A stretch of 64,000 bases of DNA from Pelagomonas calceolata (taxonomy: Eukaryota; Sar; Pelagophyceae; Pelagomonadales; Pelagomonadaceae): contig CAKKNE010000002.1 of assembly GCA_918797485.1 (NCBI GenBank), positions 772,501 through 836,500 of the forward strand. Direction: 5' to 3'. The notes under the pieces were generated by a model that did not search any database, had not been told where the DNA came from, and saw nothing but the letters and a program-made list of their open reading frames with translations. Shown piece by piece: positions 5,162-18,692 of this stretch. Each line of letters begins with the position of its first letter. The first letter of the stretch is position 1. A program made the translations under genes and the position numbers.

Positions 5162-5921
5162 ATGATCAAGGGCGTCATCATCGTCAACAATTTAGGCGTG
5201 GTCCGCCTGGCCAAGTTCTACGAGCAGGTCCACGTGACGGGCGAGTCGGCGGAACAGGCGCAGCAGAGCGTCATCAAAAAAATCTACCGAGCGGTCAGCA
5301 AGCGCCAGGACAACCAGTGCAACTACCTGGAGGGGAGCATTCCCGAGTGGGGCGGCGACACGAAACTTATATATAGACACTACGCTACTCTCTATTTCGT
5401 TTTCGCGTGTACGAATCGAGAAAGCGACCTGGGCATCCTGGACCTGATTCAAGTTTTCGTGGAGGCCTTGGATCGGTCCTTCGAGAACGTGTGTGAATTG
5501 GATCTCATCTTCCACAGCGACAAGTGCCACTACGTGCTGGACGAGATAATTATCGGGGGGCTGGTCTTAGATACCTCCATCACGAACATCATGGGCGGCG
5601 CCGACGACCAGAACAAGCTCCACAAGTCGAGCCTGTCGCTGCTGACCTCGGGTCCCAAGCTGTGTGGAAATCAAAATTTGACGGCGTGCTCGTGCTGAAT
5701 CGTCGCGTCGTCCTCCACGCCATCGACGCGACTCCTGCTCGACGGCGTGGCGGTGTGAATTCCTCACCGCTCGACCGAGCCAGGACGGCCGCGTCATCGC
5801 CGAGAAACGACTTAGTGAAGAATTGTCGGGTGCACCCGACGCACTGGTTGATTTCCACACAGGTCCCAAGAAGACGCAGATCGGCGCGCGGCCGGGGACG
5901 CTCTCCTCGGGGTACCAGTAA
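5162..5921 (+). CDS. AP3S: AP-3 adaptor complex small subunit (sigma-3), one introner intron
   Basis: Spliced from 5162-5651 and 5863-5921 into 182 codons. The sigma-adaptin fold is recognisable from the start (MIKGVIIVNNLGVVRLAKFY) through YFVFACTNRESDLGILDLIQ and VLDEIIIGGLVLDTSI, matching AP-3 sigma in sequence and length. The subunit forms part of the AP-3 coat that sorts cargo to lysosome/vacuole-related compartments. Without splicing the frame ends soon after LLTSGPK. Removing 5652-5862 gives LLTSGPKKTQIGARPG and a stop at 5919-5921. The removed segment is a transposon-like introner (next entry). The stop lies 2 bp from the convergent stop of the following gene. Confidence 0.93.
5660..5862 (+). 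mobile_element. Introner element with perfect 15-bp TIRs and 8-bp target duplication
   Basis: The element starts CTGTGTGGAAATCAA (5660-5674) and ends with its exact reverse complement TTGATTTCCACACAG (5848-5862). It is flanked by the direct repeat GTCCCAAG (5652-5659 and 5863-5870). The intron is the left repeat plus the element: the GT of the repeat serves as donor and the terminal CAG as acceptor. It has no coding capacity, so it is a non-autonomous DNA transposon acting as an intron. It contains the core CACGCCATCGACGCGAC at 5716-5732. Confidence 0.9.
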
Positions 5922-14837: not shown

Positions 14838-15870
14838 TTATACCGCCGACGACTCCGTTGGAGAGACCGCGTCGCCGTCGCCGATCTCCCCCGAGTCCTG
14901 GTGCCGGAAGGACACCATCCGTGGCGGCCGCCGCGTCGACGGCGCCGACGCGTGCCACGTGAGCGAGGGCGAGAGCCCGGAGGGCGTGGCCGTCGGCTCG
15001 AGCGAGCTATCCCGCGACGACGCCTTGGAATTTATCGTCGACATGCTTCGGAGCAGCGCGGGCGGTGAGAGCAGCCGCGACGACGCCGCACGGAGTAATG
15101 ATCTCTTCGACGGCTGCGGCGCCGAATGCGCGTGCCGCACCGCCTGTGTGCCAGGAGCTCCCGGCGCGTAACCACGCAGGTCCGGCTTCGAGCCGGCCGC
15201 CGCCGCGTCGCGCGAGGCCATGCAGGCCGCGATGAGATCACCAAACAGTGGCCGCGTCTGGACGTCGTCCGCGGTCCGCGTCCAGAGGAACGTCTTCGGG
15301 TACAATTTGTCAAGGCCCCGTCTCTCGATGGTGGTCCAGGCGTCGGCCTTGGTACCGTTCCGGTCGCGGTAGATCTCGTCGAACAACCTGCGTGCATTCA
15401 GTCAGTGAGTCGCGTCGATGGCGATCGTGCAGGCACCGCGCGCGACCCGAGCATCGGTAGCACGAGCAGCTCCTTGTCGCAGGCCTGCCCGTCCGGATGG
15501 CACTTCGCGCAACACGTGAGGTCGCCGCCGAAGACATCTAGCGCATCGCGCGGCCGGTTCGGCGCGAGCGGTTTTAGCCCTGAATTGGTCGAATAGTACA
15601 TGCCGTCGGAGCCGTTGCGCGCCCAGCACGCCGTCAGCTCGGCGCGACACCACGCCCGCCGGCGGAACGTCTTCGAGTCACACACGCATCCCGTGTCCGC
15701 ATGCGTCGCGTCTGGCGCGACGACCACAAATATAGAGCAACAACTAGCAAAGGTTGGCAAAGACGCCACGGCCAGGCGCTGCGACGACCGATTGACCTGA
15801 GGTATGGAGACGATGTCCATCCAAGCTCCTGGAGGCGCCGCACGTTGAGACACGTGACGAGGCCCTCGGA
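14838..15870 (-). pseudogene. HET-like domain gene fragment with a short introner-like intron
   Basis: An exon (about 15435-15870) encodes GAWMDIVSIPQVNRSSQRLA, ASLPTFASCCSIFVVVAPDA and FRRRAWCRAELTACWARNG, the pattern of HET/TIR-like proteins that are abundant in Aureococcus. It continues, after removal of 15388-15434, into AVLFDEIYRDRNG and TFLWTRTADDVQTRPLFGDL, ending at 14838. HET-like domains in other eukaryotes take part in self/non-self signalling; here the role is unknown. There is no start codon of its own. The 5' end runs straight into a TauA-like coding fragment in a different frame (15851-16173). It is either a chimeric gene with an unrecognised small intron or a truncated relic. 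Confidence 0.5.
15388..15434 (-). other. Inferred GC-AG intron with introner core
   Basis: In gene orientation it starts GCCTGCACGATCG and ends ATGCACGCAG, 47 nt. The HET-type frame continues only if a GC donor is used. It contains GCCATCGACGCGACTC, the core shared with other introns in the window. No target duplication is visible. Confidence 0.45.
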
Positions 15871-16646: not shown

Positions 16647-18692
16647 CTAGCACCCGCCGGCTGGCAGCCGGCACGCCGCCAAGGACGAGGGCGAGATCCG
16701 CGGCAGCTCCATCGCCAGGTTTACTTGCGAGACCAACGACCAGGACTCGGCATCAAAAACCTCGACGACGCCGCCGGCCGGCCGCCACGCTAGGATTGAT
16801 ACTCGGTCGCCCGTCGGACTGACGCAAGCGTCTAGAATAGGGTGCTGGTTCTTGAGCTGGCCCTCCCAGACCCCTTCCACCTCTTTGGTTTTCGCGTCCC
16901 ACTCCTCCGGCTTCATGAGTGTAGCACAGGGTTTGTGCGTCCGCAGATCTATGATCTCGGCGATGCCGTACTCGCCTGCCACGAGCATTTCGTGTTCTTT
17001 GCCCACGAACTTGACCACGGTAACCGGGGCCATCCGATTCAAGCAGGCGACGGCGCCTTCGCTTCGGCGACAGTCCCACAACATCACGCGCTTGTCTTCT
17101 CCACCGGAAGCAACCGTAGAACCGCGCACATCGACCGTAGTAACAGGGTAGTTGTGCCCCCTCTGATCGTCGTCGTAGTTCTCGTCGGCGTCCGGGTTGT
17201 CGGCCCGGTTTATGTCGCCCAGCGCGCCCTTGGATTGTAAGGTCCGCGCGTCCCACAACCTTACGCACCAGTCCGTACCACCCGATACGAGTGTGTCCGA
17301 ATTGTCGTCCACGGCCACCGCTCGTACGTCGCTCCGCATCCTCGAGGACGCGTGGGACCTTTCTGCGACGCCGGCCTCGACCCACCGGTTGATGCCACTT
17401 TGTTCGGCCTTGGGCGGTCGCCACAATTTCAAATCGCCGCCCCGACAACCGGCGACCGCATAGGAACCGCGCGCGTCCGACGCGAGGCACAGACCCCAAT
17501 CTCTTGAACCTTTCAACTCGCCCGACTTCTCCCAGCACCGTTTTCGGGCCGTCGTCGCCTTGCTCTTCATCTTCCACCACTTCCCCGACTCTTTTGTGGT
17601 CGTGACCTCGTAGTCCTTCCAGCGGAAGGCACTTACGCCTCTCGTCTGGCCACAAGTTAAAACCATGCCCGCTTGTAAGGGTGGGGCGCACAATTTCAAT
17701 ACTTTGGCGTCCGTCCTCGCGTTGCAGTTCATAGAATTATACGCAGGTTTGCTTGTACCATCCGCAACTAACGTCCCGAAGGACCCGTCCGCAGCTAAAG
17801 AGCCACCTCCCCGCAAAGCGCCACCGACCAGCAACGCGTCGCAGGCTTGTTGTAAAGGCTCGTCGTCCTCAGAACTTTCTTCTTGCTTCACCTCGGTCAG
17901 CGCCCGGCCGCGCGGCCCGGCCTTCCGCTCCTTCTTCTTGCCCCAGCCGAACCAGGTGCGTCCCGAACCCTCGGAGAAGGACTGGCTCTTGTCGGAGACG
18001 ACCTGCGCGGACATCGACCGGTGAGTCACGCCATCGAGCAGCCGCAGTTTGGTTTCCACGCGGCTCGCGACGTGGCCACTCTCCTGGAACTGGCCGACAT
18101 ACATCTTGTCCTTGCTCGAGTCGACGACCTTGCCCATGCCGAACTTCGCGCCGCCCCGCACCGTTTGGTTGCGATCGGAGAAGCCCTGGCGGCCCTGGCT
18201 CGCGGATTGAGCTCTTTCAGAGAAGCCCCCGCCCTGCCTCGCGGTTTGAGTTTTGTCAGAGAAGCCCTGCCTGCCCTGGCTCGCGGAGCTGGCACCTTCG
18301 GAGAAGCCGTGGGGCCGCTCGGAGAAGTGGGCCGTGATGCGCGGGTCGCTCGGGGGCGGCGGCGGCAGCGGTTCCTCTGCGACCGTGAGGACCTCGGCGG
18401 CGGCGGCCAGTTGCGAGACCTCGGTGGCCAGCCGCGGCGACGTCCCCTTCGGCGGCAACCGCCCGCGCGCGGCGAGCTCGGCGATGGTCCGCTTCACGGC
18501 ATAGTTCGGTACTAAACGCGTGCCCCCAATCCCTAACGTCGCGCCCGTGGTCGGCGACGTGAGCTTCCCCGAGTCGAGCCAGGCTTCAATCGAAGCGCGC
18601 TCGTAGGTGTGGCCGTCTCCAACCAGCGTGCAGGGGTCCTCGAAGACTTCGAGGGTCAGAGGGCAGCAGAGGCCGTCGAGCTCGGAGCTCAT
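16647..18692 (-). CDS. U-box / WD40 protein (putative E3 ubiquitin ligase), 681 aa
   Basis: The ATG at 18690-18692 leads directly into a U-box (residues about 8-72: LCCPLTLEVFEDPCTLVGDG, then TYERASIEAWL). This RING-like E2-binding fold identifies ubiquitin ligases. The middle (about 125-270) is low-complexity with a repeated GFSE/GFSD unit (SASQGRQGFSD). From about 330 on, WD40 blades are visible (LVSGGTDWCVRLWDART, VASGGEDKRVMLWDCRRSEG), probably forming one propeller that binds substrate. U-box plus WD40 is the PRP19-like combination, but the coiled coil of PRP19 is not evident and the central repeats are unlike it. The gene is intronless and divergent from malic enzyme. Confidence 0.8.
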   Translation of the reverse strand: MSSELDGLCCPLTLEVFEDPCTLVGDGHTYERASIEAWLDSGKLTSPTTGATLGIGGTRLVPNYAVKRTIAELAARGRLPPKGTSPRLATEVSQLAAAAEVLTVAEEPLPPPPPSDPRITAHFSERPHGFSEGASSASQGRQGFSDKTQTARQGGGFSERAQSASQGRQGFSDRNQTVRGGAKFGMGKVVDSSKDKMYVGQFQESGHVASRVETKLRLLDGVTHRSMSAQVVSDKSQSFSEGSGRTWFGWGKKKERKAGPRGRALTEVKQEESSEDDEPLQQACDALLVGGALRGGGSLAADGSFGTLVADGTSKPAYNSMNCNARTDAKVLKLCAPPLQAGMVLTCGQTRGVSAFRWKDYEVTTTKESGKWWKMKSKATTARKRCWEKSGELKGSRDWGLCLASDARGSYAVAGCRGGDLKLWRPPKAEQSGINRWVEAGVAERSHASSRMRSDVRAVAVDDNSDTLVSGGTDWCVRLWDARTLQSKGALGDINRADNPDADENYDDDQRGHNYPVTTVDVRGSTVASGGEDKRVMLWDCRRSEGAVACLNRMAPVTVVKFVGKEHEMLVAGEYGIAEIIDLRTHKPCATLMKPEEWDAKTKEVEGVWEGQLKNQHPILDACVSPTGDRVSILAWRPAGGVVEVFDAESWSLVSQVNLAMELPRISPSSLAACRLPAGGC

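Follow-up and report, generated by a model that had tools for sequence, protein, structure and literature searches.

The AP-3 sigma gene of Pelagomonas calceolata contains, in its last part, a short stretch bounded by inverted repeats, which raises the question of whether a transposon has made an intron there and, if so, which splice site came with the element and which was found in the target. The gene lies in the 64 kb window analysed here (64,000 nucleotides, C2:772501-836500 of a 32,445,274-base genome in eight contigs, of which C1-C6 comprise 32,315,327 bases). Exon 1 (5162-5651, plus strand) encodes a clathrin-adaptor small chain (PF01217, 5e-40) whose nearest PDB matches are AP-3 sigma-1 chains (E 9.3e-53), in agreement with the host gene named in an earlier note on this DNA.

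Downstream of exon 1 is a 203 bp element (5660-5862) with terminal inverted repeats of 15 bp, CTGTGTGGAAATCAA at 5660-5674 and TTGATTTCCACACAG at 5848-5862, that match without a mismatch. It is flanked by exact copies of GTCCCAAG at 5652-5659 and 5863-5870, so the perfect repeats and the 8 bp target duplication that the note had described are both present. Strictly speaking, the direct repeat extends over 9 bp (GGTCCCAAG), because the final base of the element and the one preceding the target are both G; the target duplication is set at 8 bp because other copies of the family fix that length. When the window was scanned for exact 8 bp repeats accompanied by 12 bp inverted ends 60-3000 bp apart, nine pairs with no more than two end mismatches were returned, and the AP-3 sigma element was the only one with none. 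An internal inverted repeat occupies 5712-5753 (arms 5712-5726 and 5739-5753), and its CGCCATCGA-type motif was found again in many shorter family copies. The family has two traits of a MITE, 15 bp perfect terminal inverted repeats and an 8 bp target duplication.

From these features and those of the family described below, we consider it very probable that the element is a non-autonomous DNA-transposon introner with a donor from the duplicated target and an acceptor borne by the element. A MITE-like cut-and-paste transposon, mobilized by a transposase encoded elsewhere, would have inserted in the last part of AP-3 sigma and duplicated 8 bp of its target, GTCCCAAG. The spliceosome would take the GT at the start of the left target copy as 5' splice site, and the element's right end would supply a branch-like sequence, pyrimidines and the CAG acceptor. 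In the right terminal repeat these correspond to TTGAT, the putative branch site (A at 5851), a short pyrimidine run and CAG. Splicing would remove the left target copy together with the element as a 211 nt phase 1 intron (5652-5862), leaving the mRNA unchanged, and the right target copy would remain exonic at the start of the 59 nt exon 2 (5863-5921; stop codon TAA at 5919-5921).

Excision of 5652-5862 yields an open C-terminus of 18 codons past the split codon, followed by the stop, and a product that ends in GPKKTQIGARPGTLSSGYQ; the unspliced message would add 14 read-through residues past the junction codon. The claim that removing one repeat and the element restores the frame fits this open C-terminus, but the frame alone cannot single out the target donor, because a second candidate donor within the left terminal repeat, CTGT|GTGGAA, 12 nt further on, is also in frame. 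If that GT were used, each insertion would add 12 nt (8 of target and 4 of element), or four residues (here PKLC), and the legend to Fig. 2F of PMC9860276 gives just such a 12 bp addition, 4 bp of introner and 8 bp of duplication, for introners of Aureococcus sp. The AP-3 sigma locus is also compatible with an ordinary MITE that is not spliced at all, as read-through would alter only the poorly conserved tail of the protein. Alignment with solved homologues stops at residue 161 and the tail lies beyond it, so that the frame at this locus fits splicing without proof by homology. Evidence that separates these readings came from the rest of the family.

Sequences matching the 15 bp end with up to two mismatches occur 3,250 times in the whole genome (1,653 forward and 1,597 reverse), against 22 (14 + 8) for a reversed-sequence control, and 152 copies have two perfect ends with 163-193 bp between them. 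The identification of the element as an introner is supported by these numbers. If each element bears two such ends, approximately 1,600 would be present, and the family probably exceeds a thousand copies in this genome. P. calceolata has 16,667 genes with 0.45 introns each (PMC9481584), and the family may make up about a fifth of the roughly 7,500 introns, an estimate in which the copies need not all be annotated introns.

We read 90 copies that have both ends (no more than three mismatches each) 40-260 bp apart. This sample is not random: it combines the top BLAST copies with listed copies whose ends are perfect (mostly from C1 and C2) and with the neighbours of these, and selection in part by ends and similarity inflates both end conservation and duplication quality within it. 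The element is 202-203 bp long in 53 of the 90, with a tail of shorter copies reaching down to 75 bp. The 63 full-length copies differ from their consensus by a median of 3.4% (range 1.0%-42%), the most divergent being one that shares mainly its ends with the consensus. The ends are the best conserved blocks of the element at 99%, a figure inflated by the choice of copies partly by their ends, and the copies are similar right up to the inferred splice borders. The AP-3 sigma copy is 5.4% from the consensus of the 63 and 3.9% from its closest sampled neighbour. This insertion is not specially young, and the earlier suggestion that its intact ends imply a recent event is not supported: two perfect ends are shared by 152 copies genome-wide and so tell little about age.

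The 8 bp sequences flanking the 90 copies differ at none, one, two, and three or more positions in 62, 14, 9 and 5 cases, respectively, and the target duplication is of constant length, 8 bp with no more than two mismatches in 85 of the 90. The check proposed in the earlier note, a search of the genome for the 15 bp ends with 8 bp duplications, gave further copies of the ends, whose absence would have spoken against the proposal, and 62 of the 90 copies read have exact duplications. Introns collect transposons, and such accumulation would fit an old ordinary intron that was later filled by a transposon and has a flanking repeat by chance. However, the element begins and ends at the inferred splice sites, the exact duplications in those 62 copies stand at the same borders, and for three copies found in a relative (see below) the matching P. 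calceolata site is continuous. We give a filled older intron almost no credence.

Donors were counted in the 76 copies with no more than one mismatch between the target copies, the 14 with two or more being left out. GT or GC is present at one or other outer end of the duplication in all 76, compared with 32% expected by chance. The coding strand was called from the flanks alone, with the duplications excluded, and a hexamer model, fitted to the same loci after removal of the elements, was used for both strand and frame calls. On the strand so called, the inferred donor reads GT in 54 copies, GC in 21 and GA in one, whereas the far end begins with GT or GC on the complementary strand in 19 of 76. 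The enrichment over coding background is 14.3-fold for GT and 2.2-fold for GC; GA stands at 0.18-fold and GG does not occur. These counts support the earlier proposal that the left target copy provides the donor, and the structure of the element and its family copies support the other half of that proposal, a CAG acceptor from the element's end. A donor at CTGT|GTGGAA needs neither G-T nor G-C at the start of the target, yet 75 of the 76 copies have one or the other there. It is only because of this bias over many copies that the target donor is favoured over the internal one, which we regard as improbable.

Excision of the left target copy and element preserves the reading frame in 72 of the 76 copies, and in 50 of 50 where both sides are clearly coding. 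With an earlier strand call that included the duplications, the frame was preserved in 54 of 54, and a retained intron would shift the frame in 42 of those. The AP-3 sigma copy is among the four that failed the automatic test, because exon 2 is 59 nt long and most of the 120 downstream bases examined lie past the stop; with so little length and conservation, this exon gives no basis for a frame test at that locus alone. An ordinary unspliced MITE gives no reason for either the coding-strand donor bias or the conservation of frame over many copies, and we consider it very unlikely. The intron phases of the GT copies (27, 9 and 14 in phases 0, 1 and 2) are close to the proportions in which codons offer co-optable GT (0.47, 0.16 and 0.37). 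The same pattern, with intron phase tracking the codon distribution of usable GT, was reportedly seen by Huff in 2016.

The two target copies are unlike in 22 cases, with 30 differences in all. Eight of these are at position 3, and in all eight C or A in the exon copy stands against G or T in the donor copy, though both the grouping and the count are exploratory and were made after the fact. The exon copy carries C at position 3 in 37 of 50 GT copies, versus 21.0 expected, which may reflect a real target preference (also exploratory). A palindromic GTC..GAC preference of the transposase, of the kind seen in P elements, was considered as a source of the bias and rejected, as the coding-strand bias is one-sided; for the same reason, most of the bias in the duplication is attributed to selection for a donor. 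The acceptor-side end is no better conserved than the donor-side end (14 versus 11 mismatches in 44 oriented copies).

Among the 56 copies that have GT at one end only, the donor adjoins the A-end of the element in 28 and its other end in 27, with one unclear, where orientation was judged by the base adjoining the end repeat and is approximate. TTGATTTCCACACAG or a near version of it is found at the 3' border in both orientations, because both element ends are the same repeat. Each end, read outward, would serve as an acceptor, and since the 15 bp repeat is shared the family would make introns in either orientation, the working one being set by the G-T, or less well the G-C, that starts the coding-strand copy of the target. 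On balance, these patterns incline us towards a direction-free introner, in which the inverted repeat would be a complete acceptor module and each insertion would put a random 8 bp target to the test as 5' splice site. Those that survive would then constitute a natural donor screen, with G-Y at positions 1-2 as nearly the sole rule, GC at about one-seventh of the enrichment of GT, and donors that ripen after insertion. The RNA of the AP-3 sigma intron is predicted to fold at -93.7 kcal/mol, compared with -72.1 (sd 4.2) for shuffled sequences (z -5.1), with both ends in one 15 bp stem; a strong fold is expected from inverted ends.

In Nature in 2016, Huff, Zilberman and Roy are said to have described introners of Aureococcus anophagefferens that are short non-autonomous DNA transposons, carrying one splice site and co-opting the other. 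The P. calceolata family resembles them in its pelagophyte host, inverted ends and duplicated target. The co-option of a splice site from a duplicated target is already a known mechanism (Gozashti 2022). The length of introners in Aureococcus is near 210 bp (PMC9481584), and they have, as relayed second-hand in PMC7789003, canonical splice motifs, whereas 21 of the 76 donors inferred in P. calceolata are GC; the likeness drawn here is one of described features. The earlier note had given Aureococcus and Micromonas as hosts, a list that omits the introner-length introns already noted in P. calceolata (PMC9481584). That study of strain RCC100, which has six nuclear contigs of 32.4 Mb plus 90 kb plastid and 39 kb mitochondrial contigs, records an intron length peak at approximately 210 bp, compared with 211 nt for the AP-3 sigma intron, and its introner-length introns are probably the same elements as the family described here. 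Passages of the main text of PMC9481584 are silent on ends, duplications, donors and orientation, which its Supplementary Note 3 may cover. Among the matches listed in a literature search of titles and abstract starts, no account of Pelagomonas introners that deals with their ends, duplications or donors was present, and the word 'Pelagomonas' is absent from the main text of PMC9860276.

Introners of the Symbiodinium type carry their 3' site and take the 5' site from the duplication (legend to Fig. 2B, PMC9860276). The P. calceolata family divides its splice sites between element and target in the same way and has inverted ends as they do, but duplicates 8 bp rather than the 4 bp given there. 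Introner families in which GC makes up as much as 50% of donors are on record (PMC9860276), so that the use of GC is not in itself new. For Amoebophrya, it was proposed that the inverted ends of introners could pair in the RNA and draw the exons together (PMC7789003), and the 15 bp stem predicted above would likewise pair both ends of the P. calceolata intron. The Amoebophrya introners differ in having direct repeats of 3-5 nt and highly varied splice motifs (PMC7789003). Neither the kind of element nor its mechanism is new, and introner-length introns had already been recorded in the species. Some traits of the family are uncommon: it appears to be used in both directions, 21 of 76 copies have GC donors, and both target copies are kept. 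As most copies read retain both, what a new 5' splice site needs, and how it changes later, can be read from the genome, making the family a natural test of these requirements. The presence of the same family in a misbinned relative, at three sites that are empty in P. calceolata, is a further addition.

When the 21-base right end was used to query a prokaryote genome set, a single match was returned, in contig L074 (NZGT01000054.1) of the GTDB bin Spirochaeta sp. MED672. L074 is collinear with C6:2669048-2678806 at 80-87% identity, and another contig of that bin, L081 (contig 146), matches C3:4010786-4012990 at 76-88%. The two contigs look like misbinned pelagophyte DNA that contaminates the reference bin and offers a source of a relative's genes. 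L081 contains two short introner copies with exact duplications, GTCATGAC and GTCGCCAC, and L074 one copy with the duplication GTCGGCCG. With the element and one duplication removed, the joined flanks of the first L081 copy align across the junction with C3:4011221-4011420 (200 for 200 bases, 85%) and those of the second with C3:4012419-4012658 (240 for 240 bases, 82%), and both sites are empty in P. calceolata. At the GTCGGCCG site, the C6 sequence of P. calceolata has the target but lacks the element. Excising the first L081 copy leaves a frame in which no gap interrupts the alignment to CNNM metal transporters across the junction (best E 4.5e-12). The comparison covers these three complete copies of the relative. 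Insertion after the two lineages parted would be the simplest reading, though exact intron loss would look the same.

Other length differences were seen between the two genomes. In L078 (C6:2676640-2678070, reverse complement, approximately 777-867), P. calceolata has an insertion-like stretch of about 75 bp between two copies of TCGCGACC, 14 bp from the relative's introner site in L074; this may be the result of two insertions that took place independently at nearly the same position. In L079 (C6:2675200-2676700), a P. calceolata family copy running from CTGTGTAGAAATCAA to TTGATTTCCACACAG has GCGGCGAC on both flanks, and the relative's contig has no clear counterpart of that stretch. Insertion-like stretches near C6:2669155-2669355, which begins with a near family end, and C6:2670236-2670454 have no counterpart in L074, and one near 5895-5996 of L074 is missing from P. 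calceolata; no clear duplication was found around any of the three. L074 also has a right end, at 2383-2397, that is without a recognised left end.

Domain searches of the genome's contigs found no transposase gene between ends of this family. P-element (PF21787) and KDZ (PF18758) domains gave no match in the genome, where the controls were silent too, nor did the Merlin-type domain (PF12762), for which one control did match. Two open genes matched hAT (PF05699) with weak scores barely above the cut-off, and one of the frames fell below it on re-testing. Transposase-like frames, inverted ends and 8 bp duplications, TTGCTCGC and ACACTCGG, are present in two hAT-like elements (L031 1542-5208 and L032 1514-4398), which have their own end sequences, CAGGGCAGCAGA and CTAGGTTGCCAT/C. 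As both genes lie between ends other than the family's, they were not taken as movers of the introners. Elements of the hAT type have ends starting 5'-YARNG and an 8 bp duplication. The introner ends, CTGTGTGG, are accompanied by a duplication of the same length, yet are unlike both 5'-YARNG and the ends of the two hAT-like elements. A 4.7 kb end pair (C1:5508130/5512840) was considered as an autonomous element and discarded, as its ends belong to separate short copies. When viral contigs were searched for exact end pairs (165-180 or 50-80 bp between them) and for the 21-base right end, none was among the matches listed.

Introner matches were also found at nearly equal coordinates at the starts of C1 and C5, for example 362067 and 362017, which fits the 393 kb duplicated chromosome ends reported for P. 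calceolata (PMC9481584); at three matching places, introner presence did not differ between C1 and C5. Within the window, a stretch on the minus strand at 18003-18063 has ends with four and three mismatches, the motif CACGCCATCGA between them and a duplication that is about half alike by eye, and is possibly a decayed short copy of the family. The hairpin motif of the introner (CGCCATCGA/TCGATGGCG) recurs in the window at 15415, 41765, 51873, 58242 and 60329, sites that possibly represent other or older introner families.
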